Shown here piece after piece: positions 24,792 to 33,625 of a DNA stretch of 64,000 bases (positions are counted from its first letter, which is position 1; each line of letters starts with the position of its first letter). Source of the stretch: Candidatus Anaerostipes excrementavium (GTDB lineage Bacteria; Bacillota; Clostridia; Lachnospirales; Lachnospiraceae); contig DXEM01000015.1 in the NCBI GenBank assembly GCA_019114985.1, forward strand, positions 1 through 64,000, in the 5' to 3' direction. Made by a program: the position numbers and the translations under genes. Under the pieces are notes generated by a model. That model searched no databases, was not told the origin of the DNA, and worked only from the letters and a program-made list of their open reading frames with translations.

Positions 24792-27032
24792 ATGGCTGAA
24801 GAAACTAAGGAAACAAAGAAGATTCTTCCCTGGAAAAAGAAAGATAAGAAAAAAGACAAGAAAAAGAATAAAAAGAAGAGAAGAAAAATTCTTGCAATTA
24901 TTTCTGTTATCTTCTTATTGCTCGTAGTCGTTTGCTGGTTTGCTTTCGGAAGGAAAGCAATGCAGCTTCGAAGTGAGGCAAAAGATATTGTGGAAGAATC
25001 AACCGTAGATACTTTCAAGGCTTCTCAGACAAGTATTGTGTATGATACCAATGGAAAGCAGCTGACGAAATTAAAAGGGGAAAAGGACGCATACTATCTG
25101 TCGTTTCAAGATCTCCCGGAAAATGCGGTCAATGCTATGATTGCAGTAGAAGATCAGAATTTCTATAAGCATAGCGGCGTAGATTACAAAGGTGTTCTTC
25201 GCGCGGCAGTATCTTTCGTTACAAAGAAGGGTGAGATCACACAGGGCGGAAGTACGATCACTCAGCAGCTTGCCAGAACCGTCTTTTTGAACCGGGAAGT
25301 ATCTTGGCAGAGAAAAGTAAAAGAAATGTTCGTAGCAGTAGAGCTTGAGAAAAAATACAGCAAAGAGCAGATTATGGAATTTTATTTAAATAATATCTAT
25401 TTCTCCAATGGATATTATGGAATCCAAGCTGCAAGCAAAGGATATTTTGATAAAGATGCGGACGAGCTTACATTGTCAGAGACGGCTTTCTTATGTTCTA
25501 TTCCGAATGCTCCGACGATGTATGATCCGTTGAAGAATAAGGAAAAGACGCTGACTAGGCGTGATAAGATTTTAAAAGATATGTATGGCGAGGGCATGAT
25601 TTCCAAGAGTGAGTATGAGGATTCTCTCAAAGAGGAAATTAATGTTCAGGACAACAGATCAAATAGTCAGACAGAAAAGAAAAACTATGTGGAGACCTAT
25701 GTGCTTCATTGTGCAACAAAAGAATTGATGAAGCAGAACGGTTTCGATTTCAAGAACTCATTTGATTCGGACAGTGAGAAGGAACAGTATGATGATGAAT
25801 ATGATAAGATGTATGCAGAGTGTAAAAGAAATTTGTACAGCGGCGGATATCGTATTTATACATCCATAGACCCGGATATACAGGATCAGCTGCAGGAAAG
25901 TATTGATAACTCTCTGAGCGGATATACGGAGCAGGATAAAAATGGGATTTATCAGACTCAGGCATCCGGAACCTGTATTGATAATGATACCGGACGCGTT
26001 GTTGCGATTGTAGGCGGAAGAGAACAGGAGAATGTTGGTTTTACGCTGAATCGAGCATACCAGAGTCCAAGGCAGCCGGGAAGTGCGATCAAACCGCTTC
26101 TTGTATTCGCTCCTGCATTGGAAAAAGGGTGGTCAGCAAACTCCATTGTAAATGATAATCCAATGGATAAAAATGATGAACATCATGTCAACAATTCCGG
26201 CGGATCTTATTCCGGACAGATTACTTTTAGAAGAGCAGTGGAGAAGTCCAGCAACGTTGCCACAATGAGAATTTATGAACAGATCGGACCAAATTCGGCA
26301 TTGTCCTATTTGGAAAAGATGAATTTTAAATATTTGCAGGAAGAAGATTATAAATATTACACCACATGTCTTGGAGGATTTACGCGTGGAGCAACATCGG
26401 AAGAGATGGCAGCAGGATATGCCACGCTTGCTAATGACGGTGATTATCGGGAGCCGACCTGTATTAAAAAGATTACGACAGCGGATGGAGAAGAAATTGT
26501 ATCTTCTGATATGAAAAAAAGAGCGGTTTATTCCGAATCTGCGGCTAAGGATATGACAGATATTCTTCAAAGTGTAATTTCAGGAGGAACAGGAAGAGGC
26601 GCCAAAGTCTCTAATATCGATACGGCCGGTAAGACCGGAACAACGAGCAGCAACCGAGACGGATGGTTCTGCGGATACACACCTTATTATACAACGGCAA
26701 TTTGGGTCGGAAGAGATGATAACAAGCAGATGGCAGCGTTGAGCGGAGCATCTTATCCAAAATCAATTTGGACTACGTTTATGAATACAATTCATGAAGG
26801 ACTTTCCGGGGACAGAGAGTTATCCGGAAGCGGCAAAGCAGATGGAGGAACGACGGCTACAACGACAGAAAAGGCATCATCATCAGCTTCAACGACAGCT
26901 ACGACGGAAAGCAGCAGTGAGACAACCACGGAAGCGCCGACGACAGCAGCTCCAACAACGACAACAGCGGCGCCGACAACAACGACAGCGGCTCCATCTT
27001 CAGAAACGAACGCCGGATCCGCAGCACAGTAG
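24792..27032 (+). CDS. Class A penicillin-binding protein (PBP1A type)
   Basis: A bifunctional peptidoglycan glycosyltransferase/transpeptidase, 746 residues. The N-terminus is very lysine-rich, then one membrane helix (about 33-52). The GT51 domain has AVEDQNFYKHSGVD with catalytic E120 and GGSTITQQLARTVFL. The transpeptidase has GSAIKPL (SxxK serine), SSN (KSSNVATMR) and KTGTT. The C-terminal 60 residues are a Thr/Ala/Pro/Ser tail, with repeated TTTAAP, like an extracellular linker. I chose ATG 24792 after AAAGGTG. ATG 24774 is also in frame. An extended -10 element TGTTACAAT lies at 24725-24733. Confidence 0.95.
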   Translation: MAEETKETKKILPWKKKDKKKDKKKNKKKRRKILAIISVIFLLLVVVCWFAFGRKAMQLRSEAKDIVEESTVDTFKASQTSIVYDTNGKQLTKLKGEKDAYYLSFQDLPENAVNAMIAVEDQNFYKHSGVDYKGVLRAAVSFVTKKGEITQGGSTITQQLARTVFLNREVSWQRKVKEMFVAVELEKKYSKEQIMEFYLNNIYFSNGYYGIQAASKGYFDKDADELTLSETAFLCSIPNAPTMYDPLKNKEKTLTRRDKILKDMYGEGMISKSEYEDSLKEEINVQDNRSNSQTEKKNYVETYVLHCATKELMKQNGFDFKNSFDSDSEKEQYDDEYDKMYAECKRNLYSGGYRIYTSIDPDIQDQLQESIDNSLSGYTEQDKNGIYQTQASGTCIDNDTGRVVAIVGGREQENVGFTLNRAYQSPRQPGSAIKPLLVFAPALEKGWSANSIVNDNPMDKNDEHHVNNSGGSYSGQITFRRAVEKSSNVATMRIYEQIGPNSALSYLEKMNFKYLQEEDYKYYTTCLGGFTRGATSEEMAAGYATLANDGDYREPTCIKKITTADGEEIVSSDMKKRAVYSESAAKDMTDILQSVISGGTGRGAKVSNIDTAGKTGTTSSNRDGWFCGYTPYYTTAIWVGRDDNKQMAALSGASYPKSIWTTFMNTIHEGLSGDRELSGSGKADGGTTATTTEKASSSASTTATTESSSETTTEAPTTAAPTTTTAAPTTTTAAPSSETNAGSAAQ

Positions 27033-27055
27033 TTACCGAAAAATAAAAACAGAGA

Positions 27056-27108
27056 AAATACCATATAGTATCGTAGGTGATATATACGGCTATATGGTAT
27101 TTTTTTAT
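27056..27108 (+). terminator. PBP gene terminator
   Basis: AAATACCATATAG (27056-27068) and CTATATGGTATTT (27090-27102), followed by further T. A 13-bp stem with a 21-base loop. Confidence 0.8.
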
Positions 27109-27123
27109 TATTTTATTATTTTA

Positions 27124-27160
27124 TTATTTTATAGAAACTTCGATCCCATGATGAAATAAA
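27124..27160. repeat. Degraded dispersed palindrome
   Basis: TTTTATAGAAACTTCGATCC followed by CATGATGAAATAAAA resembles copy 1 at 31-68, including the loop AACTTCGA, but the inverted repeat is broken by changes and a 3-base insertion. It is preceded by repeated TTATT units. Confidence 0.55.
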
Positions 27161-27200
27161 ACCCTCTTTATCACCGTACTTTCGGCGATAAAAAGGGTTT
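27158..27200 (-). terminator. prs terminator
   Basis: AAACCCTCTTTATC and GATAAAAAGGGTTT pair around CACCGTACTTTCGGC. On the minus strand the stem is followed by TTTATTTCATC, suitable for ending the prs transcript. Confidence 0.65.
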
Positions 27201-27242
27201 CTAATTGACTTAAATATGTTTTGATGTTATTGAACTAATTCA

Positions 27243-28412
27243 TTATTTTCCATATTTTGCAAGATATTCTTTAATTCGATCCGTTGGATTCAACAGATCA
27301 CTGATAGAAGCGTCATGATTCAGCGTATCAATCAGAAGTGCGACATATTTTCCAACGTCTGCGGATACATACCAGTCTCTCTCCAGAAGTTCCGGTGTCT
27401 GATATGTGAGGTTCGTTGTAATAACTTTCTCAATAACTCCTTCTTCAATTGCCTGATCAAAAACGTCCAGACCGTTTGTAAACAATCCAAAAGTAGAAAG
27501 GCAGAAGACTCTTCGTGCATTTCGGCTTTTTAATTGTCTCGCTACATCGATCATGCTTTCACCGGAAGAAATCATATCGTCGATGATTAAAACATCTTTG
27601 CCGTCGAGTGAATCTCCAAGGAATTCATGGGCAACGATTGGGTTGCGGCCATCGACTACTTTTGTATAATCACGTCGTTTGTAGAACATTCCTACGTCGA
27701 CTCCGATAACGTTTGCCATATAAATAGCACGCTGCATAGCACCTTCATCCGGGCTGATTACCATCAGCTTGTCCTTGTTGAACTCAATAGAATCGCACTG
27801 CTCAACCAAAGCCTTTACAAACTGATAAGTTGGCTGTACATTGTCAAATCCGCAAACCGGAACGGCGTTTTGTACACGTGGGTCATGGGCATCGAATGTA
27901 ATGATATTATCAACGCCAAAATGCTGAAGTTCCTGCAGCATAACCGCACAGTCTAAAGATTCCCTTGTACTGCGTTTGTGCTGACGGCTCTCATATAAAA
28001 ACGGCATAATAACATTGATGCTCTTAGCCTTTGCTGCGGATGCACTGATGATACGCTTCAAATCAGAATAGTGATCATCCGGTGACATATGGTTCACATT
28101 GCCGCATAAAGAATAAGTTAAGCTGTAGTTTAATACATCGACTAAGATATAGAGATCCATGTCTCTTACAGATTCCTGAATGACTCCTTTTGCTTCACCG
28201 GAACCAAATCTCGGGCAGGAAGCATCTAAAAGATAAGTATCTCTTAAATATCCGTCGCAGGCAATTGAATTTTGAAATTGCTGGTTGGTTTCTGTTCTCC
28301 ATTTGATAATATAGTTATCGATTTCATTTCCAAGAGTTTTACAGCTTTCAAGAGCTATGATTCCTAATTTGCCGCCAGGAATCTTAGTAAAATTGCGGTC
28401 AGATCGTCTCAT
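27243..28412 (-). CDS. prs: Ribose-phosphate pyrophosphokinase, long form
   Basis: PRPP synthetase makes 5-phosphoribosyl-1-pyrophosphate from ribose-5-phosphate and ATP. Here it has 389 residues, against about 315 for the classical enzyme, with an extended N-terminal half. Signs: NVIMPFLYESRQHKRS, ITFDAHDPRVQNAVP, ISPDEGAMQRA, and the PRPP motif DVLIIDDMISSGESM. In the classical form the loop reads like DDIIDTAGT; here TAGT is replaced by SGES. This long, divergent type may have different control by ADP. Own promoter at 28446-28475. Confidence 0.85.
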   Translation of the reverse strand: MRRSDRNFTKIPGGKLGIIALESCKTLGNEIDNYIIKWRTETNQQFQNSIACDGYLRDTYLLDASCPRFGSGEAKGVIQESVRDMDLYILVDVLNYSLTYSLCGNVNHMSPDDHYSDLKRIISASAAKAKSINVIMPFLYESRQHKRSTRESLDCAVMLQELQHFGVDNIITFDAHDPRVQNAVPVCGFDNVQPTYQFVKALVEQCDSIEFNKDKLMVISPDEGAMQRAIYMANVIGVDVGMFYKRRDYTKVVDGRNPIVAHEFLGDSLDGKDVLIIDDMISSGESMIDVARQLKSRNARRVFCLSTFGLFTNGLDVFDQAIEEGVIEKVITTNLTYQTPELLERDWYVSADVGKYVALLIDTLNHDASISDLLNPTDRIKEYLAKYGK

Positions 28413-28445
28413 GATACATCTCCTTCGTATATTGTTTATAAGTTG

Positions 28446-28475
28446 TTTATATCATCTTAAACATACTTAAGTCAA
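28446..28475 (-). promoter_or_regulatory. prs promoter
   Basis: Minus strand: TTGACT (28470-28475), 18 bases, TATAAA (28446-28451) with TGA before it. The -35 box overlaps the stop codon region of the dnaI-like gene, so prs can be expressed independently of it. Confidence 0.6.
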
Positions 28476-29453
28476 GTTTGATTTTCTAAAACGGATATCA
28501 TCCCCGTATATTTTATGCCAGGAATAGCTTTCAATCAGTCTGGAAAAAATCCTCTCAGAATAAGTATCCCGGAATTGTTTAATGGACAAATTTGTAGAAA
28601 TAATGGTTGATTTCTCTTGAATCAGCCGCTCGTTCAAACACTGAAATAATTGAGAAATAACAAATTTATTGGTCATCTCGGTTCCCAGGTCATCAATGAT
28701 CAAAAGATCGCATTGAAAGATCATATCCAATGAATGTTCCGTATCTTCTTCTTTTTCTTTCTGAAAGGTACGCTTTGCTAAATCGTCAAATAATTGAAAA
28801 GCAGTCGTGTAAACACAGGTATAGCCTTGATCGATGATCTCCTTTGCAATACAGTGGCTCAAAAAAGTTTTCCCAACACCGGTGGAACCCTGAAACAGGA
28901 TGTTCTCATGATTGGGAAAACGATCCAGAAATCCGCGGCAGTGCTGGAGAATCTTTCGGATGTTGGCTCTGGGACTCGGAAGCCCATCCGGCATCATCTT
29001 GTCAGAATAGTATTCCTCCCGGAACATCTGAAAATTCTCTCTCGCTAAGATCTTTTCCATATTTGAATTAGAGTACAGAAGATCAATGACTGCCTGTTGA
29101 AAGCAGCGGCAGCGCTCCTGACCGATATATCCGGTATCTTTACAGAGACTGCAATGATAAATAGGATCTAAGTAATCTCTGGAATAACCGGATTCTGTTA
29201 AAAGAGCTCTTTTCTGTTCTGCCAAACTGTGATTTTCCCTGCGATATTCTGCGGCAGCAGAAGCGTCGTTTCCCATGATCAGTTTTTTCCCAAGAGAAAT
29301 AGAGTTGGAAGCGATCCGGCGGTCGATTTCGCGGATCTCCGGGATCTTTTGATAAATTTCTTTTTTTCTTTCTTCATGCAGATGGTAATTGGCAAGCTGT
29401 CTCTCTTCATAGAGCCGCATGATCTTTTGGTATTCTAAATTAGATAAAGCCAT
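28467..29453 (-). CDS. DnaI/DnaC-like helicase loader ATPase
   Basis: An AAA+ ATPase of the DnaC/DnaI/IstB group, 328 residues. A coiled N-terminus is followed by a zinc-type motif (CSLCKDTGYIGQERCRCF), as in the N-terminal domain of Bacillus DnaI. Walker A is GSTGVGKTFLS and Walker B is CDLLIIDDLGTE. The arginine-finger region SERIFSRLIES is present. It should load the DnaB helicase (encoded at 37092) at origins. It sits 3 bases after dnaD, as one operon. IstB of transposons is excluded by the DnaD partner and the zinc motif. Confidence 0.9.
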   Translation of the reverse strand: MALSNLEYQKIMRLYEERQLANYHLHEERKKEIYQKIPEIREIDRRIASNSISLGKKLIMGNDASAAAEYRRENHSLAEQKRALLTESGYSRDYLDPIYHCSLCKDTGYIGQERCRCFQQAVIDLLYSNSNMEKILARENFQMFREEYYSDKMMPDGLPSPRANIRKILQHCRGFLDRFPNHENILFQGSTGVGKTFLSHCIAKEIIDQGYTCVYTTAFQLFDDLAKRTFQKEKEEDTEHSLDMIFQCDLLIIDDLGTEMTNKFVISQLFQCLNERLIQEKSTIISTNLSIKQFRDTYSERIFSRLIESYSWHKIYGDDIRFRKSNLT

Positions 29454-29456
29454 GTT

Positions 29457-30524
29457 CTAATTCTCCCTGATCTCATCCGAAAACTGTTTCTTCAAAAGCT
29501 GTTCTTCCAATGCGTCAAAATCATAGTCCCGCTGCTTAAAATTATGGACCGGCTGAACCGTATTGGAATTCGCAAAAGTCTTTGGAGACTTCTGGCGCTG
29601 ATAGAAATGCTTCGCTTGCTCCACGGTCATAATCTGGTTATCTTTCCACTGCTTAAGGATCGTGTCTGTGTAAGGGAAGCTTGGTTTATTGATGGCATTG
29701 ATTGTCCGGTTGCATGCTTCAATGACCAAAGACAAGTCAAAATGATCTTTTTCCAGCCATTGCTTCATATACTGTTCCTGGATTGGGGCCGGATTCTGAT
29801 TTAAACCAAATGCCCGCATGATCGCATAGTATTCTTTCTTAAAATTCTTGCTGTGAGCCTTGGCTTCCTCTACGGTCGTAATATTTTCCTCATACCAGTT
29901 AACAGCAACAGACTGCATATAACGGAAACTTTTTTTACCGTTGGAGACACAGTGCTCCACGAGATACTCAATCAGTTCACAGGACATGGAAAGATCCTCA
30001 TACAGATAAAGCAGAATATTCATGTCTGTGCAGGTAAGAGGCTTTCCTATGAACATCTCGCATACATAAAGAAGATAAGAAAATCTATCATCTTCACTTT
30101 TTTGCTGCAGTTCTGATGGAGAAAGGGTCTTCATAGCAGGGATGGCTTCATGTCCGGAAGCAGGAACCGAATGCAGGGCAGCAGCGGATTCCTCAGAAGA
30201 AGGCTCCTGATTCTTAACAGGGCGTGCCTGCCCCGGTACCGGAAGCAGTTCTATGGACTGTATTATGCCGTGATCTCGAACAATCTTCAAAAGAGATTCT
30301 TTTTCCCAGTATTTTAACGCCCGGGCTACATCTCCTTCTGTAAGTTCCAGCACATCCGCAAGACATGGAATACTAAAATTAGCTCCCTCAGATACCATGC
30401 GCAGCAGATAAATGTAAACTTTTATGTATTCTCCATTGGCACGTATCATATAATGATCAACAAATGTATTTGGAAGCAGCGTTCCGCCGGTCGGATATGC
30501 AGTTACGACTTTGATATAATCCAT
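29457..30524 (-). CDS. dnaD: DnaD-domain replication initiation protein
   Basis: 355 residues. The N-terminal winged-helix part (about 1-90: TLLPNTFVDHYMIRANGEYIKVYIYLL, in sections, and LTEGDVARALKYWEKE) and two C-terminal helical DnaD/DnaB2 domains (about 145-220 and 230-300, with YDxIxxxxG-like helices) match the DnaD/DnaB family. Such proteins remodel DNA and help load helicase in Firmicutes. A low-complexity Ser/Glu/Pro linker separates the parts. The stop overlaps nearly into the dnaI-like start. The promoter is at 30557-30585 and a DnaA-box array lies directly upstream. Confidence 0.9.
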   Translation of the reverse strand: MDYIKVVTAYPTGGTLLPNTFVDHYMIRANGEYIKVYIYLLRMVSEGANFSIPCLADVLELTEGDVARALKYWEKESLLKIVRDHGIIQSIELLPVPGQARPVKNQEPSSEESAAALHSVPASGHEAIPAMKTLSPSELQQKSEDDRFSYLLYVCEMFIGKPLTCTDMNILLYLYEDLSMSCELIEYLVEHCVSNGKKSFRYMQSVAVNWYEENITTVEEAKAHSKNFKKEYYAIMRAFGLNQNPAPIQEQYMKQWLEKDHFDLSLVIEACNRTINAINKPSFPYTDTILKQWKDNQIMTVEQAKHFYQRQKSPKTFANSNTVQPVHNFKQRDYDFDALEEQLLKKQFSDEIREN

Positions 30525-30556
30525 AGTGAATTCCCCTTTCCTCTAATCTAATTCTG

Positions 30557-30585
30557 ACTATAACCTAGATATGGAAAAATGTAAA
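30557..30585 (-). promoter_or_regulatory. dnaD-dnaI promoter
   Basis: Minus strand: TTTACA (30580-30585), 17 bases, TATAGT (30557-30562). The start codon of dnaD is about 33 bases downstream of the -10 box. The first DnaA-like box begins 9 bases upstream of the -35 box. Confidence 0.6.
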
Positions 30586-30593
30586 TAGCTCCG

Positions 30594-30769
30594 GAATCCA
30601 CACAAAAATTGTGGAAAAGACTGTGGATAGTGTGGATAATGTGGATAATAAATCTAAAATAACGATAACAAGCCATTTACATAGATTTTATGATTGTGGA
30701 AAAGAGAAAAAGAAATCCACAGGTTTTCTCTTTCACAATTGTGCATAAACCTGTGGATAATGTGGATAA
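30594..30769. promoter_or_regulatory. Dense array of DnaA boxes upstream of dnaD
   Basis: Four exact TGTGGATAA boxes (reverse complement of TTATCCACA): 30631-30639, 30640-30648, 30752-30760, 30761-30769. One-mismatch boxes: 30610-30618, 30622-30630, 30695-30703, 30740-30748. Two-mismatch boxes in the opposite orientation: 30594-30602 and 30713-30721. Boxes at 30622, 30631 and 30640 abut each other at 9-bp steps, and so do 30752 and 30761. An AT-rich stretch (30645-30695) lies between the two groups. The last box touches the murC stop codon. Confidence 0.85.
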
Positions 30770-32155
30770 CTATTTTTTCAGGAGAGAATCACCGATAGAA
30801 TCAACGTTTCCGGCTCCCATAGTTATCAACAAATCATTTTCTTTACAATTTTTTAAAATAAATTCTTCAATCTCTTTAAAATCACGAATGTAGCGGGCAT
30901 CTGTATCATAAGAGGACATCTTGTCCACAATATCTTTGGCGTGTACCAGGCCGTTGTCCTTTTCACGCGCCGCGTAGATATCTGTAACGATGACATGATC
31001 GCTGATACTTAGGGCTTTGGCGAAATCGTCTAAGAAAGCCATAGTTCTCGTATATGTGTGCGGCTGGAAAATACACCAAACCTCACGATGCGGAAAGTCT
31101 TTGCAGGAATTTAAGGTAGCCTCGATCTCTGTTGGGTGGTGCGCGTAGTCATCGATAATGGTAAAACCGTTTAGGGTGCCCTTCAGTTCAAAACGACGTT
31201 TCGCACCGGTAAAACCTAAAAGCCCTTTTTGCACTGCTTCTGCCGGGAGTTCCAGGCGGTCTGCTACGGCAATGGCTGCCAAAGCGTTTTTAATATTGTG
31301 ATCTCCATTCACATTCAGCTGAACGTGGTATTGATAGACACCATTTTTATAGTAATCAAAAGAACTGTGTCCCAGGGCGTCGTGTGCAATATTTTCAGCG
31401 GCAAAATCAAAGCAGTCTTTTCCGTATCCAAAAGTTACGTAATCTGCTTCCAGCCCGTCCACAATATAAGGGATATTGTCAATCTCTCCATTTAATACTA
31501 AATAACCGTAGTCTGGAAGTTTGTGAGCAAAAGCACGGAAAGATTTGCGGATATCGTCAATATCCTTAAAGAAGTCCATGTGGTCTTCTTCTATATTTAA
31601 TATAATACTGATTTTAGGGAAAAACTCTAAAAAACTATTGGTATATTCACATGCTTCCGTAATGAACATGTCGGAATGGCCAACTCGAATGTTGCCGCCG
31701 ATCGCCTCTAAGATACCTCCGACGCTGATCGTCGGATCGGTATCTGCCTCCAAAAGAATGTGAGACAGCATAGAAGTCGTCGTTGTCTTTCCGTGAGTTC
31801 CGGAAACAGCGATTGCATTTTTGTAGTTGTGCATCAGCTGTCCAAGGAGTGTTGCTCGGCTCATAACAGGAATTTCTTTTTTGATTGCCTCCTGGTATTC
31901 TTCGTTGGTATCAAAATTGATTGCAGCAGTATATACGACCAGATCAATATCAGATGTAATATTATCCGCTGTCTGCTGATAGAAGATCTTCGCTCCCTTT
32001 TGTTCCAGATGATCTGTTATCGGAGAATGGTGGATATCAGATCCGGAAACAGTGAAATTCTCTTTGAGCAGAATCTCGGCGAGACCACTCATGCTGATTC
32101 CTCCAATCCCCATGAAATGAATATGAATTGGCTGATGAAAATCTATTTGATACAT
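30770..32155 (-). CDS. murC: UDP-N-acetylmuramate-L-alanine ligase
   Basis: MurC adds L-alanine to UDP-MurNAc, the first amino acid of the peptidoglycan stem. The N-terminal Rossmann part has HFMGIGGISMSGLAE, the central ATP-binding loop is SGTHGKTTTTSM, and ENNHxD-like NIEEDHMDFF and YAHHPTEIEATL are present. 461 residues, full length. It has its own promoter and probably reads toward dnaD, unless stopped in the DnaA-box region, where I see no clear terminator. Confidence 0.96.
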   Translation of the reverse strand: MYQIDFHQPIHIHFMGIGGISMSGLAEILLKENFTVSGSDIHHSPITDHLEQKGAKIFYQQTADNITSDIDLVVYTAAINFDTNEEYQEAIKKEIPVMSRATLLGQLMHNYKNAIAVSGTHGKTTTTSMLSHILLEADTDPTISVGGILEAIGGNIRVGHSDMFITEACEYTNSFLEFFPKISIILNIEEDHMDFFKDIDDIRKSFRAFAHKLPDYGYLVLNGEIDNIPYIVDGLEADYVTFGYGKDCFDFAAENIAHDALGHSSFDYYKNGVYQYHVQLNVNGDHNIKNALAAIAVADRLELPAEAVQKGLLGFTGAKRRFELKGTLNGFTIIDDYAHHPTEIEATLNSCKDFPHREVWCIFQPHTYTRTMAFLDDFAKALSISDHVIVTDIYAAREKDNGLVHAKDIVDKMSSYDTDARYIRDFKEIEEFILKNCKENDLLITMGAGNVDSIGDSLLKK

Positions 32156-32194
32156 AAAATCTATGTCCTTTCTTAAAAATAATCAATATTGGCT

Positions 32195-32261
32195 GTATCT
32201 TATTATCTTGATAAGATACTTCGTTTTTCCTTATTATAAGTCACCGGCATATTTCTTGCAA
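32195..32261 (-). promoter_or_regulatory. murC promoter with leader hairpin
   Basis: Minus strand: TTGCAA (32256-32261), 17 bases, TATAAT (32233-32238). The transcript leader then holds a perfect 9-bp inverted repeat, GTATCTTAT/ATAAGATAC (32195-32203 and 32211-32219), which could be an operator or RNA hairpin. Confidence 0.6.
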
Positions 32262-32344
32262 GAAGGAGAAAGAAATGAAAATAAGTAAAATGAAAGAATA
32301 TAGTAAAATGTAATAATAATTGTTAACAAATAAGAAAAAATTTG

Positions 32345-32373
32345 TTCACATTTCACGATAGAAATGGTATAAT
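32345..32373 (+). promoter_or_regulatory. spoVG promoter
   Basis: TTCACA (32345-32350), 17 bases, TATAAT (32368-32373), with TGG before the -10. The leader to the spoVG start is about 95 bases. The stretch 32262-32344 holds nothing else I recognise. Confidence 0.65.
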
Positions 32374-32475
32374 ATTTATTATCAATATACGGGCTAAATT
32401 ATAAAAGAAGAAGTCGAGAATCAATAGTCCGAAAGCGATTTCAGCTATATTTTATAAAACTAGGAGGAAGACAAC

Positions 32476-32763
32476 ATGCAAATTACAGATGTACGTATTC
32501 GAAAAGTAGCCAAAGAGGGTAAGATGAAGGCCGTAGTGTCCATCACGATCGATAATGAATTTGTAGTTCATGATATTAAAGTAATTGAAGGAGAGAAGGG
32601 ACTATTCATCGCAATGCCGAGCCGCAAGGCAGCGGATGGAGAGTATCGGGATATCGCGCACCCGATTAATTCTGATACAAGGAACATGATTCAGACTTTG
32701 ATCTTAGAACAGTACGAAGCTATGAAGCTTGGGGATATCGACGCTACAGCGCCTGAAATTTAG
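32476..32763 (+). CDS. spoVG: SpoVG RNA/DNA-binding regulator
   Basis: A 95-residue SpoVG protein ([19 protein letters not shown], then [17 protein letters not shown]). In Firmicutes it influences sporulation septation, virulence or capsule genes, and binds nucleic acid. The conserved basic C-terminal helix is slightly short. It has an AGGAGGAAG ribosome site. It is not linked to glmU or purR as in Bacillus. Confidence 0.96.
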
Positions 32764-32788
32764 ATCTTTCAAGAATGTCTTTGGTAAT

Positions 32789-32850
32789 CTTGCCGCAGTG
32801 TGCGCATTCACTTCGCTGTTATCTTCATTATGCGTGCGCCGGCAAGTTTT
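32789..32850 (+). terminator. Long hairpin after spoVG, probable terminator
   Basis: CTTGCCG (32789-32795) pairs with CGGCAAG (32840-32846). GTGTGCGCA (32798-32806) pairs with TGCGTGCGC (32831-32839) using three G-T pairs. Four T follow. The loop is 24 bases. Confidence 0.55.
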
Positions 32851-32859
32851 GCCGAAGAA

Positions 32860-32890
32860 TATATCAGATGGCACATTATCATCTGATATA
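32860..32890. repeat. Perfect 11-bp inverted repeat, function unknown
   Basis: TATATCAGATG (32860-32870) and CATCTGATATA (32880-32890) around 9 bases. No T run follows, so it is not an obvious terminator. Confidence 0.6.
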
Positions 32891-32937
32891 GCGACTTCTT
32901 CTTTAGGAAACTGTGAGAATCGGGAGGGATCCTGGTT

Positions 32938-33000
32938 CTTTTATTATGTTAGCAGGAACTTTATTCCTACTAAATAATAAATACTCCGTTCGGATTGTTT
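32938..33000. repeat. Degraded dispersed palindrome with tail
   Basis: TTAGCAGGAA (32949-32958) and TTCCTACTAA (32964-32973) form a near-perfect inverted repeat inside TTTTATTATG...AATAATAAA. The tail ACTCCGTTCGGATT closely follows the tail GCTCCGCTCGGATT of the copy at 34415, so this is probably an old copy of the same element. Confidence 0.6.
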
Positions 33001-33052
33001 GCTTTGTTCTTTTATCATCCTTATGGTATGATGAAAAGAAGGAGGTTGTGAA

Positions 33053-33241
33053 ATGGAATTTCATGTAGGAGATATCATTAAAATGAAAAAACCGCATCCG
33101 TGCGGAAGCAATGAATGGGAGATTTTAAGAGTCGGAATGGATTTTCGTCTGAAATGTCAGGGATGTGCAAGACAGGTCATGGTCCCGAGAAAGCTGGTGG
33201 AAAAGAATTTTCGGGGATTTATAAAAAAGGCTTGCGAATAA
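33053..33241 (+). CDS. DUF951 small zinc-ribbon-like protein
   Basis: A 62-residue DUF951 protein: FHVGDIIKMKKPHPCGSNEW, then RVGMDFRLKCQGCARQVMVPR. Three cysteines (in HPCG and KCQGC) are conserved in the family and could bind metal. In Bacillus its homologue (YyaB/YyzM group) lies near the rpsF-ssb-rpsR operon, as here. Function unknown. It has the ribosome site GAAGGAGG. Confidence 0.9.
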   Translation: MEFHVGDIIKMKKPHPCGSNEWEILRVGMDFRLKCQGCARQVMVPRKLVEKNFRGFIKKACE

Positions 33242-33337
33242 CGGAAAAATATGATAGAATACCAACTCGTGGTATACAAAAGTATCCTTGCTCTTTTATA
33301 GGAAAAGAGCCATCAGACCAAAAGGAGGTGCAGAGTA
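33232..33337 (+). promoter_or_regulatory. rpsF promoter and structured leader
   Basis: TTGCGA (33232-33237), 17 bases, TAGAAT (33255-33260), overlapping the end of the DUF951 gene. The leader contains ACCA/TGGT (33261-33273) and a strong hairpin GCTCTTTT/AAAAGAGC (33290-33310). Leaders of rpsF operons in many bacteria bind the S6:S18 complex for feedback control. This one is a candidate, but I did not identify the specific motif. Confidence 0.5.
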
Positions 33338-33625
33338 ATGAAGAAATATGAATTAGCATTAGTGTTAAGTGCAAAGATCGAAGACGAAGAACGCGCAGCA
33401 ATGCTTGAGAAAGTTCAGGCAATGATTACTACAGCAGGTGCTACGATCACGAACATCGATGAATGGGGTAAGAAGCAGTTAGCTTACGAGATTCAGAAGA
33501 TGAGAGAAGCATACTACTATTTCATCCAATTCGAAGGTGAAGCTACAGTTCCAGCTGAACTGGAAGAGAGACTTCGTATTGAGGAATCTGTATTACGTTT
33601 CTTATGCGTTAAACAGGATGCATAA
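33338..33625 (+). CDS. rpsF: 30S ribosomal protein S6
   Basis: Ribosomal protein S6, 95 residues (MKKYELALVLSAKIEDEER, WGKKQLAYEIQKMREAYYYF). It binds 16S rRNA with S18 in the platform of the small subunit. First gene of the usual rpsF-ssb-rpsR operon. AAGGAGGTG precedes the start. Confidence 0.97.
   Translation: MKKYELALVLSAKIEDEERAAMLEKVQAMITTAGATITNIDEWGKKQLAYEIQKMREAYYYFIQFEGEATVPAELEERLRIEESVLRFLCVKQDA

Follow-up and report, generated by a model that had tools for sequence, protein, structure and literature searches.

A conserved array of DnaA boxes upstream of dnaD in Lachnospiraceae, and its possible role in regulating the helicase-loader operon

Between murC and dnaD of Candidatus Anaerostipes excrementavium there is a dense array of DnaA boxes, and this array is conserved across the Lachnospiraceae. 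Comparative evidence points to a DnaA-binding regulatory region of dnaD-dnaI, and we think it fairly probable that DnaA directly regulates these genes, probably as an upstream activator. This suggests that DnaA may directly control the availability of its loading partners.

An array of DnaA boxes between murC and dnaD

We analyzed positions 1 to 64,000 of contig DXEM01000015.1, and we will call this whole 64-kb stretch the window. On its minus strand lie, in order, murC (30770..32155, 461 amino acids), dnaD (29457..30524, 355 amino acids, with a DnaB_2 domain), and a DnaI/DnaC-type helicase loader (dnaI; 28467..29453, 328 amino acids). dnaI was identified by its position and its IstB-like ATPase domain. 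The run continues to prs, and murC-dnaD-dnaI-prs spans 27243-32155 on the minus strand.

The initial annotation reported ten DnaA-like 9-mers in this region, four of them exact, with some at 9-bp steps. Our box scan reproduced these. At 30610-30769, eight boxes have no more than one mismatch; all are on the minus strand and point to dnaD (starts at 30610, 30622, 30631, 30640, 30695, 30740, 30752, and 30761). Those at 30631, 30640, 30752, and 30761 are exact. The other two 9-mers, at 30594 and 30713, are weak boxes in the opposite orientation, with two mismatches each. The array was also said to begin 9 bp upstream of the dnaD -35 box; 8 bp lie between the array and the -35 box that we predict.

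All eight boxes and three abutting pairs lie in the 248-bp stretch that runs from the stop codon of murC to dnaD. Over 3,000 dinucleotide shuffles of this stretch, the mean was 0.14 boxes and 0.0003 abutting pairs, and no shuffle had more than 3 boxes or 1 pair. Across the genome (2.69 Mb) there are 57 exact boxes, versus 9 matches for a reversed-pattern control. The exact abutting 18-mer has only three copies in the genome: two in the array and one before hpf. The array is thus a cluster of boxes beyond chance, within less than 300 bp and outside oriC, and it is predicted to bind DnaA. A search of 27000-33500 against Rfam, with E values up to 1, gave no match within the array; two weak matches outside it (31743-31773 and 32771-32943) are far below the gathering scores.

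The array is built of two modules. Module A, on the murC side, begins with two exact abutting boxes immediately downstream of the murC stop codon (30752..30769, minus strand). A third box, TTATGCACA (30740..30748, minus strand), follows box 2 after 3 bp, which is a 12-bp step. Module B, the promoter-proximal tandem of dnaD, has three abutting boxes (30622..30648, minus strand): 30648-30640 and 30639-30631 are exact, and 30630-30622 is CTATCCACA. A weaker box, TTTTCCACA, lies 3 bp after module B (30610..30618, minus strand) and is present in 4 of 11 Anaerostipes loci. The inverted weak box GAATCCACA (30594..30602, plus strand) is the one that lies before the -35 box. The distance between modules A and B varies from about 87 to 189 bp among relatives, and we do not claim that it is phased. 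The initial annotation did not include the two modules, the embedding of module A in a hairpin, or the box in the codons of murC (see below).

A box cluster with an AT-rich stretch could also be a second or alternative replication origin, and the initial annotation had suggested an origin-like element. We consider this extremely improbable. dnaA and dnaN are on another contig, where oriC-like clusters of boxes flank dnaA. The GC skew in the window is positive on either side of the array and does not switch there; it is near zero or slightly negative in three places: over the minus-strand genes at 27-32 kb, around 5-8 kb, and at the window's end. In each of three complete genomes of the genus, dnaA is near position 1 kb; the array is found at 52, 71, and 80 kb, so that 50-80 kb separate the two. 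By eye, we saw no DnaA-trio in the array, and we saw a trio-like run between dnaA and dnaN. The genome has a single DnaA gene, whose C-terminal DNA-binding domain holds GKRDHSTV. In the three complete genomes, dnaD faces the replication fork coming from dnaA; in genome G354 it does not. As a separate observation by eye, exact TTATCCACA sites in G008:C1 show a replication-strand bias: most are on the minus strand in the first portion of the chromosome, and most are on the plus strand in the second.

The initial annotation also remarked that yabA is absent from its usual locus. This holds more broadly: none of 41 genomes (this one and 40 relatives) has a YabA match over the Pfam cut-off, and there are two weak matches below it. 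As positive controls, B. subtilis and L. lactis pass the cut-off. The missing match makes promoter control by DnaA, or titration of DnaA, at the array more interesting, but it proves nothing.

Conservation, linkage to dnaD, and spacing to the promoter

We surveyed one genome per genus from 110 genera of Lachnospiraceae. These loci comprise 30 that were returned and 80 that were fetched, with hand-entered strands, out of 159 genera with a match; the genera left out include those with fragmentary N-terminal matches and those fetched earlier. There is a box upstream of dnaD in 104 of the 110 genera, an exact box in 96, an abutting tandem in 87, and two separate tandems in 55, which leaves 23 genera without a tandem pair. 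Box density is 17.3 per kb in the intergenic regions versus 3.1 per kb in the adjacent coding sequence of murC, with the codon box counted. In an overlapping earlier set (L019-L128), murC is adjacent in 102 of 110 loci, and 70 of those have tandem pairs. All 17 Anaerostipes loci, from two collections that may include some of the same species, have two tandems.

Among relatives from the same order but outside the family, a tandem lies within 650 bp before dnaD in 5 of 9 loci (L035, L038, L040, L043, and L046). One of the nine, L045, spans only 235 bp. We also scanned the stretch before dnaD in a class-wide sample of 60 of the 281 matching genomes. Seven of the nine genomes from the family have the tandem. 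The 51 genomes from other families, one of them in the same order, have no tandem and no exact box; they have 15 boxes with one mismatch (0.26 per kb).

The initial annotation had raised the prospect that relatives lose the boxes while keeping the promoter. This is mostly not what we found, with exceptions such as L109, which keeps a promoter-like sequence and has no boxes. L039 has a single box in a 660-bp gap, which also speaks against the proposed regulation. Another exception to the pairing of boxes with the predicted promoter is L317 (genome G339). There, murC was not found adjoining dnaD, there is no box within 650 bp of dnaD, and an exact tandem lies about 1.7 kb before it (G339:C14:60016-60033). 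The boxes of L317 thus seem not to have stayed with dnaD.

In three other loci without murC next to dnaD (L107, L111, and L035), the box pair is still before dnaD. In L107 and L111, dnaD is preceded by a zinc-dehydrogenase-type gene (named in L111 by its likeness to the gene in L107), and in L035, a LytTR response-regulator gene lies between murC and dnaD. In L111, murC has moved to the far side of a prs-like gene, and the 102 bp that follow its stop codon contain no box. Where murC is adjacent, five genera have less than 70 bp between the two genes, and none of these has a box; all 104 genera with a longer gap have at least one. Four loci at contig ends (L045, L067, L082, and L108) cannot decide the linkage.

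These loci bear on the idea that the array is chiefly a titration cluster that would keep DnaA from oriC soon after initiation, and that its site before dnaD is incidental. The initial annotation named a second DnaA-binding locus, which would be compatible with promoter control. As the main role of the array, we consider titration unlikely: the boxes stay with dnaD in the three rearranged loci, and they are absent from all five genera with little space before dnaD. The displaced tandem of L317 fits titration better, as do the many strong boxes, the missing YabA match, and the distance to dnaA in the three complete genomes of the genus. That distance is not fixed, however: in G354, which bears the array, dnaA is about 286 kb away, and in G391, where it is 518 kb away, there are two boxes and no tandem. 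Titration does have a precedent in B. subtilis, where deletion of six box clusters was reported to cause early initiation (PMC5295017, PMC13220808).

The spacing of the boxes also argues against titration and for control of the dnaD promoter. In the window, the predicted promoter (30557..30585, minus strand) comprises TTTACA at 30585-30580, a 17-bp spacer, and TATAGT at 30562-30557, so that the -10 box starts 59 bp after module B. For the 87 genera with a tandem, we measured how far the best predicted -10 box lies from the end of the tandem nearest to the promoter. We tested the 69 genera with a -10 box at 35-95 bp and set aside 18 values above 95. Thirteen distances are at 46-50 bp, 12 are at 55-60, 33 are at 66-72, and 8 are at 78-79. 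These 66 are near 49, 59, 68, or 79 bp, which correspond to whole helical turns; the other three are 88, 91, and 94 bp. The Rayleigh R is 0.70 at a period of 10, 0.68 at 10.5, and 0.52 at 9.

Because related genera share spacers, we also compared sister pairs. A tree of the C-terminal part of MurC, with 111 tips from all of our sets, gave 55 independent pairs. Their distances differ by 0-2 bp (30 pairs), 7-13 bp (15), 18-26 bp (9), or 42 bp (1), and no pair differs by 3-6 or 14-17 bp. For the 25 pairs that differ by at least 4 bp, p is at most 0.0005 at periods of 10-10.5, relative to uniform draws. Gain or loss of boxes could produce steps of 9 bp, so we also removed multiples of 9, which left 18 pairs (p = 0.002-0.0035). 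Part of the step pattern may still be due to gain or loss of 9-bp units. When spacers were clustered by sequence, the phasing persisted with 54 clusters (p = 4e-12) and with 21 clusters (p = 0.003) and was not significant with 7 or 2. Overall, the geometry is constrained relative to the predicted promoter, and this signal is lost under the strictest clustering. The promoters are predictions. We consider the spacing to be good evidence, if not yet conclusive, for a tandem that has to face RNA polymerase.

By eye, many of the predicted dnaD promoters have an extended -10 box (TGTGCTATAAT or TATGCTATAAT), and in these a common CTATTYYC-like stretch at the -35 region replaces a good -35 box.

We propose that DnaA would bind the tandem boxes of module B and, from one fixed side of the DNA, would act on RNA polymerase, most probably as an upstream, class I-like activator. 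We favor activation over repression because the tandem is mostly 46-79 bp before the -10 box, does not overlap the promoter, and is phased. Class I activators, such as those with CRP-type spacing, bind upstream of the promoter at whole-turn distances. Module B resembles their sites in its position; it would differ in that the bound protein, here a putative activator, is the replication initiator.

A hairpin in module A and a box within murC

On the minus strand, module A can fold into a hairpin (30713..30758), in which 30758-30747 pairs with 30726-30715. Box 2 forms the 5' arm, and the inverted weak box at 30713 forms the 3' arm. The third box starts within the stem, and the rest of it is in the loop. 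The hairpin has a predicted folding energy of -18 kcal/mol (z = -3.27). Behind it is a T-rich tail, which ends with another TTTTCCACA box (30695..30703, minus strand) that is present in 11 of 11 Anaerostipes loci.

We looked for similar hairpins in the 103 genera in which murC is adjacent and there is over 100 bp of space. A CCACA...TGTGG hairpin is present within the first 110 nucleotides in 71 of these, with a stem of at least 8 pairs in 69. In most of them, box 2 pairs with an inverted half-box downstream, and a T-rich tail follows in most genera.

The arms share one register, at a distance of 35 bp, in 45 genera, which were chosen for the five core pairs, so the invariance of the core is not an argument. 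The next three inner pairs, which were not selected for, are standard in 40, 41, and 42 of the 45 genera (versus 18.6-19.6 expected), and they include all four Watson-Crick types. To count covariation, we used 42 of the 45 genera; three with poor pairing (L316, L338, and L343) had been dropped beforehand, which favors structure. In these, 92.5% of cells pair, versus 75.9% in shuffles, and changes on both sides number 99 versus 35. Four of the five covariation measures were reached by 0 of 500 shuffles, and the fifth was reached by 7 of 500. Sliding the alignment by one base reduces pairing to about 40%.

The covarying stem and the T-rich tail suggest that the hairpin is probably the intrinsic terminator of murC. 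A simple scan of the window for terminators with loops of 3-8 nucleotides detected none. Could the repeats mainly act as RNA, with the likeness to DnaA boxes as a by-product of this terminator? The strong covariation of the inner stem and the T-rich tail would fit, but we think this is quite improbable. Box 1 lies outside the stem, and its conservation almost equals that of box 2; the boxes are therefore more likely to be kept for protein binding. Also, module B is outside the one hairpin that we examined, that of module A; the repeats match the consensus for DnaA; and a box is kept in the codons of murC. A box lies directly at the murC stop codon in 73 of the 109 genera with murC adjacent. 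Among same-strand box pairs from the 110 genera, 169 are at a step of 9 bp versus 38 at 12 bp.

A further box lies within murC. It is an inverted box, TTATCAACA (30823..30831, plus strand), which coincides with the codons TTG-ATA-ACT for Leu-Ile-Thr. These three residues, near the end of murC, are encoded this way in most of the genera with the array. Isoleucine occupies the position in 175 of 182 distinct loci. Its codon is ATA in 133 of the 143 loci with a box within 20 nucleotides of the stop codon, in 8 of the 27 loci where the array is displaced, and in 0 of the 5 loci without boxes. Other isoleucine codons in the same segments of murC are ATA 10-14% of the time. When we paired loci on the tree, the link between the codon box and the position of the array was not significant: among 17 contrasting pairs, 8 were for it, 2 were against it, and 7 were ties (p = 0.11). 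A cruder split found no association in the set of 110 genera (p = 0.72) and an association in another set (p = 0.001). Four loci with the array displaced from murC (L073, L105, L122, and L125) have lost the codon box, and they have a forward box 44 bp before the first tandem.

In our proposal, module A would provide further sites for DnaA and would also terminate the transcription of murC, which would separate murC from dnaD. The weak inverted box in the codons of murC would probably be part of the same DnaA complex.

Other tandem sites, known systems, and implications

Abutting tandems recur at a few other sites, none of which is as well developed as the dnaD array. All 11 Anaerostipes genomes that we searched have a tandem before hpf. 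From the matches listed in other genera, we chose 40 stretches away from dnaD with an exact tandem, and 19 of these hold hpf. The third recurrent site is next to mecA or SH3/NlpC-type genes (L366, L367, L371, L378, L385, L388, L357, L358, L364, L372, L374, and L389; these neighbors were identified with Pfam in L366 only). In 11 of these 12 loci, there is an extra box 52-55 bp before the tandem, and we consider this site to be a candidate for titration. The existence of tandems at hpf and near mecA is also a point in favor of titration at the dnaD array.

Of the 40 hpf loci whose tandem lies within 420 bp, 37 have 92-318 bp between the end of the tandem and the predicted -10 box. By eye, these distances have no clear phase relative to the -10 box, so we do not claim that the tandems at hpf work like the dnaD array. 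In 22 of 34 hpf loci (such as G000:C27:64677-64746, L003, and L180), a RAAC-N4-KTTTYG-like palindrome lies behind the tandem, at 41-45 bp in 18 loci and at 32-34 bp in 4. These two positions are roughly one helical turn apart. We take the palindrome to resemble an SOS (LexA) box.

Clusters of DnaA boxes away from oriC are known from other bacteria. In B. subtilis they are described at ywlC, ywcI-vpr, gcp-ydiF, yqeG-sda, trmE, and yydA, and DnaA activates transcription of sda (PMC4447404). The dnaD array is similar in having several strong boxes away from oriC. It differs in that it lies at the helicase-loader operon, has no gaps within its tandems, is phased to the promoter, and is next to a terminator-like hairpin. 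Of the 269 regions bound by B. subtilis DnaA in vitro, the 20 strongest, as given in Table 1 of PMC4447404, include none at dnaD. The datA site of E. coli requires IHF, as reported in PMC5295017 and PMC12371093; like datA and other titration regions, the array is a cluster of high-affinity boxes away from oriC, but it is linked to one promoter. The literature matches listed include no paper that describes DnaA boxes at either dnaD or hpf of Lachnospiraceae, which is not proof of absence.

The array also resembles the double DnaA box regulon of E. coli, in which pairs of boxes precede replication genes. E. coli DnaA is reported to prefer pairs with gaps of 2-3 bp (PMC11317965), whereas the main pairs of the array have no gap (a 9-bp step); its only 3-bp gaps are between boxes 2 and 3 of module A and in the last pair at module B (30622/30610). 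The E. coli preference raises the question of whether the abutting 9-bp repeats are instead bound by a different transcription factor that shares the motif. This seems quite improbable to us. The motif is the exact DnaA consensus, which is also found around dnaA-dnaN in the same genome, and boxes 2 and 3 of module A do have a 3-bp gap.

Direct control of dnaD-dnaI by DnaA, which the initial annotation had offered as one possibility, has gained comparative support from the conservation of the array, its linkage to dnaD in most of the informative loci, and its helical phasing. If DnaA does regulate this operon, the supply of the helicase loader would follow the activity of DnaA. In B. subtilis, DnaD is reported to inhibit the cooperative binding of DnaA (PMC5295017). 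Given that DnaD restrains DnaA there, control of dnaD by DnaA would close a loop.

A more elaborate version, which we hold only tentatively, is that DnaA acts throughout the Lachnospiraceae as a phase-dependent activator of the loader operon by means of the zero-gap tandems, the terminator hairpin built from boxes, and the box in the codons of murC. DnaA could then set both the termination of murC and the start of dnaD. If true, DnaA would couple initiation and the supply of the loader to the synthesis of the cell wall in bacteria that lack YabA. To our knowledge, the control of initiation in Firmicutes that lack YabA has been little studied.

The quantized spacing is a clue, from sequence alone, that DnaA may act as a face-of-the-helix transcription factor, and the zero-gap tandem poses the structural question of how DnaA would pack on abutting boxes. 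A conserved DnaA-controlled promoter for the helicase loader, if confirmed, would directly connect the activity of the initiator with the loading of the helicase in a large family of gut bacteria.
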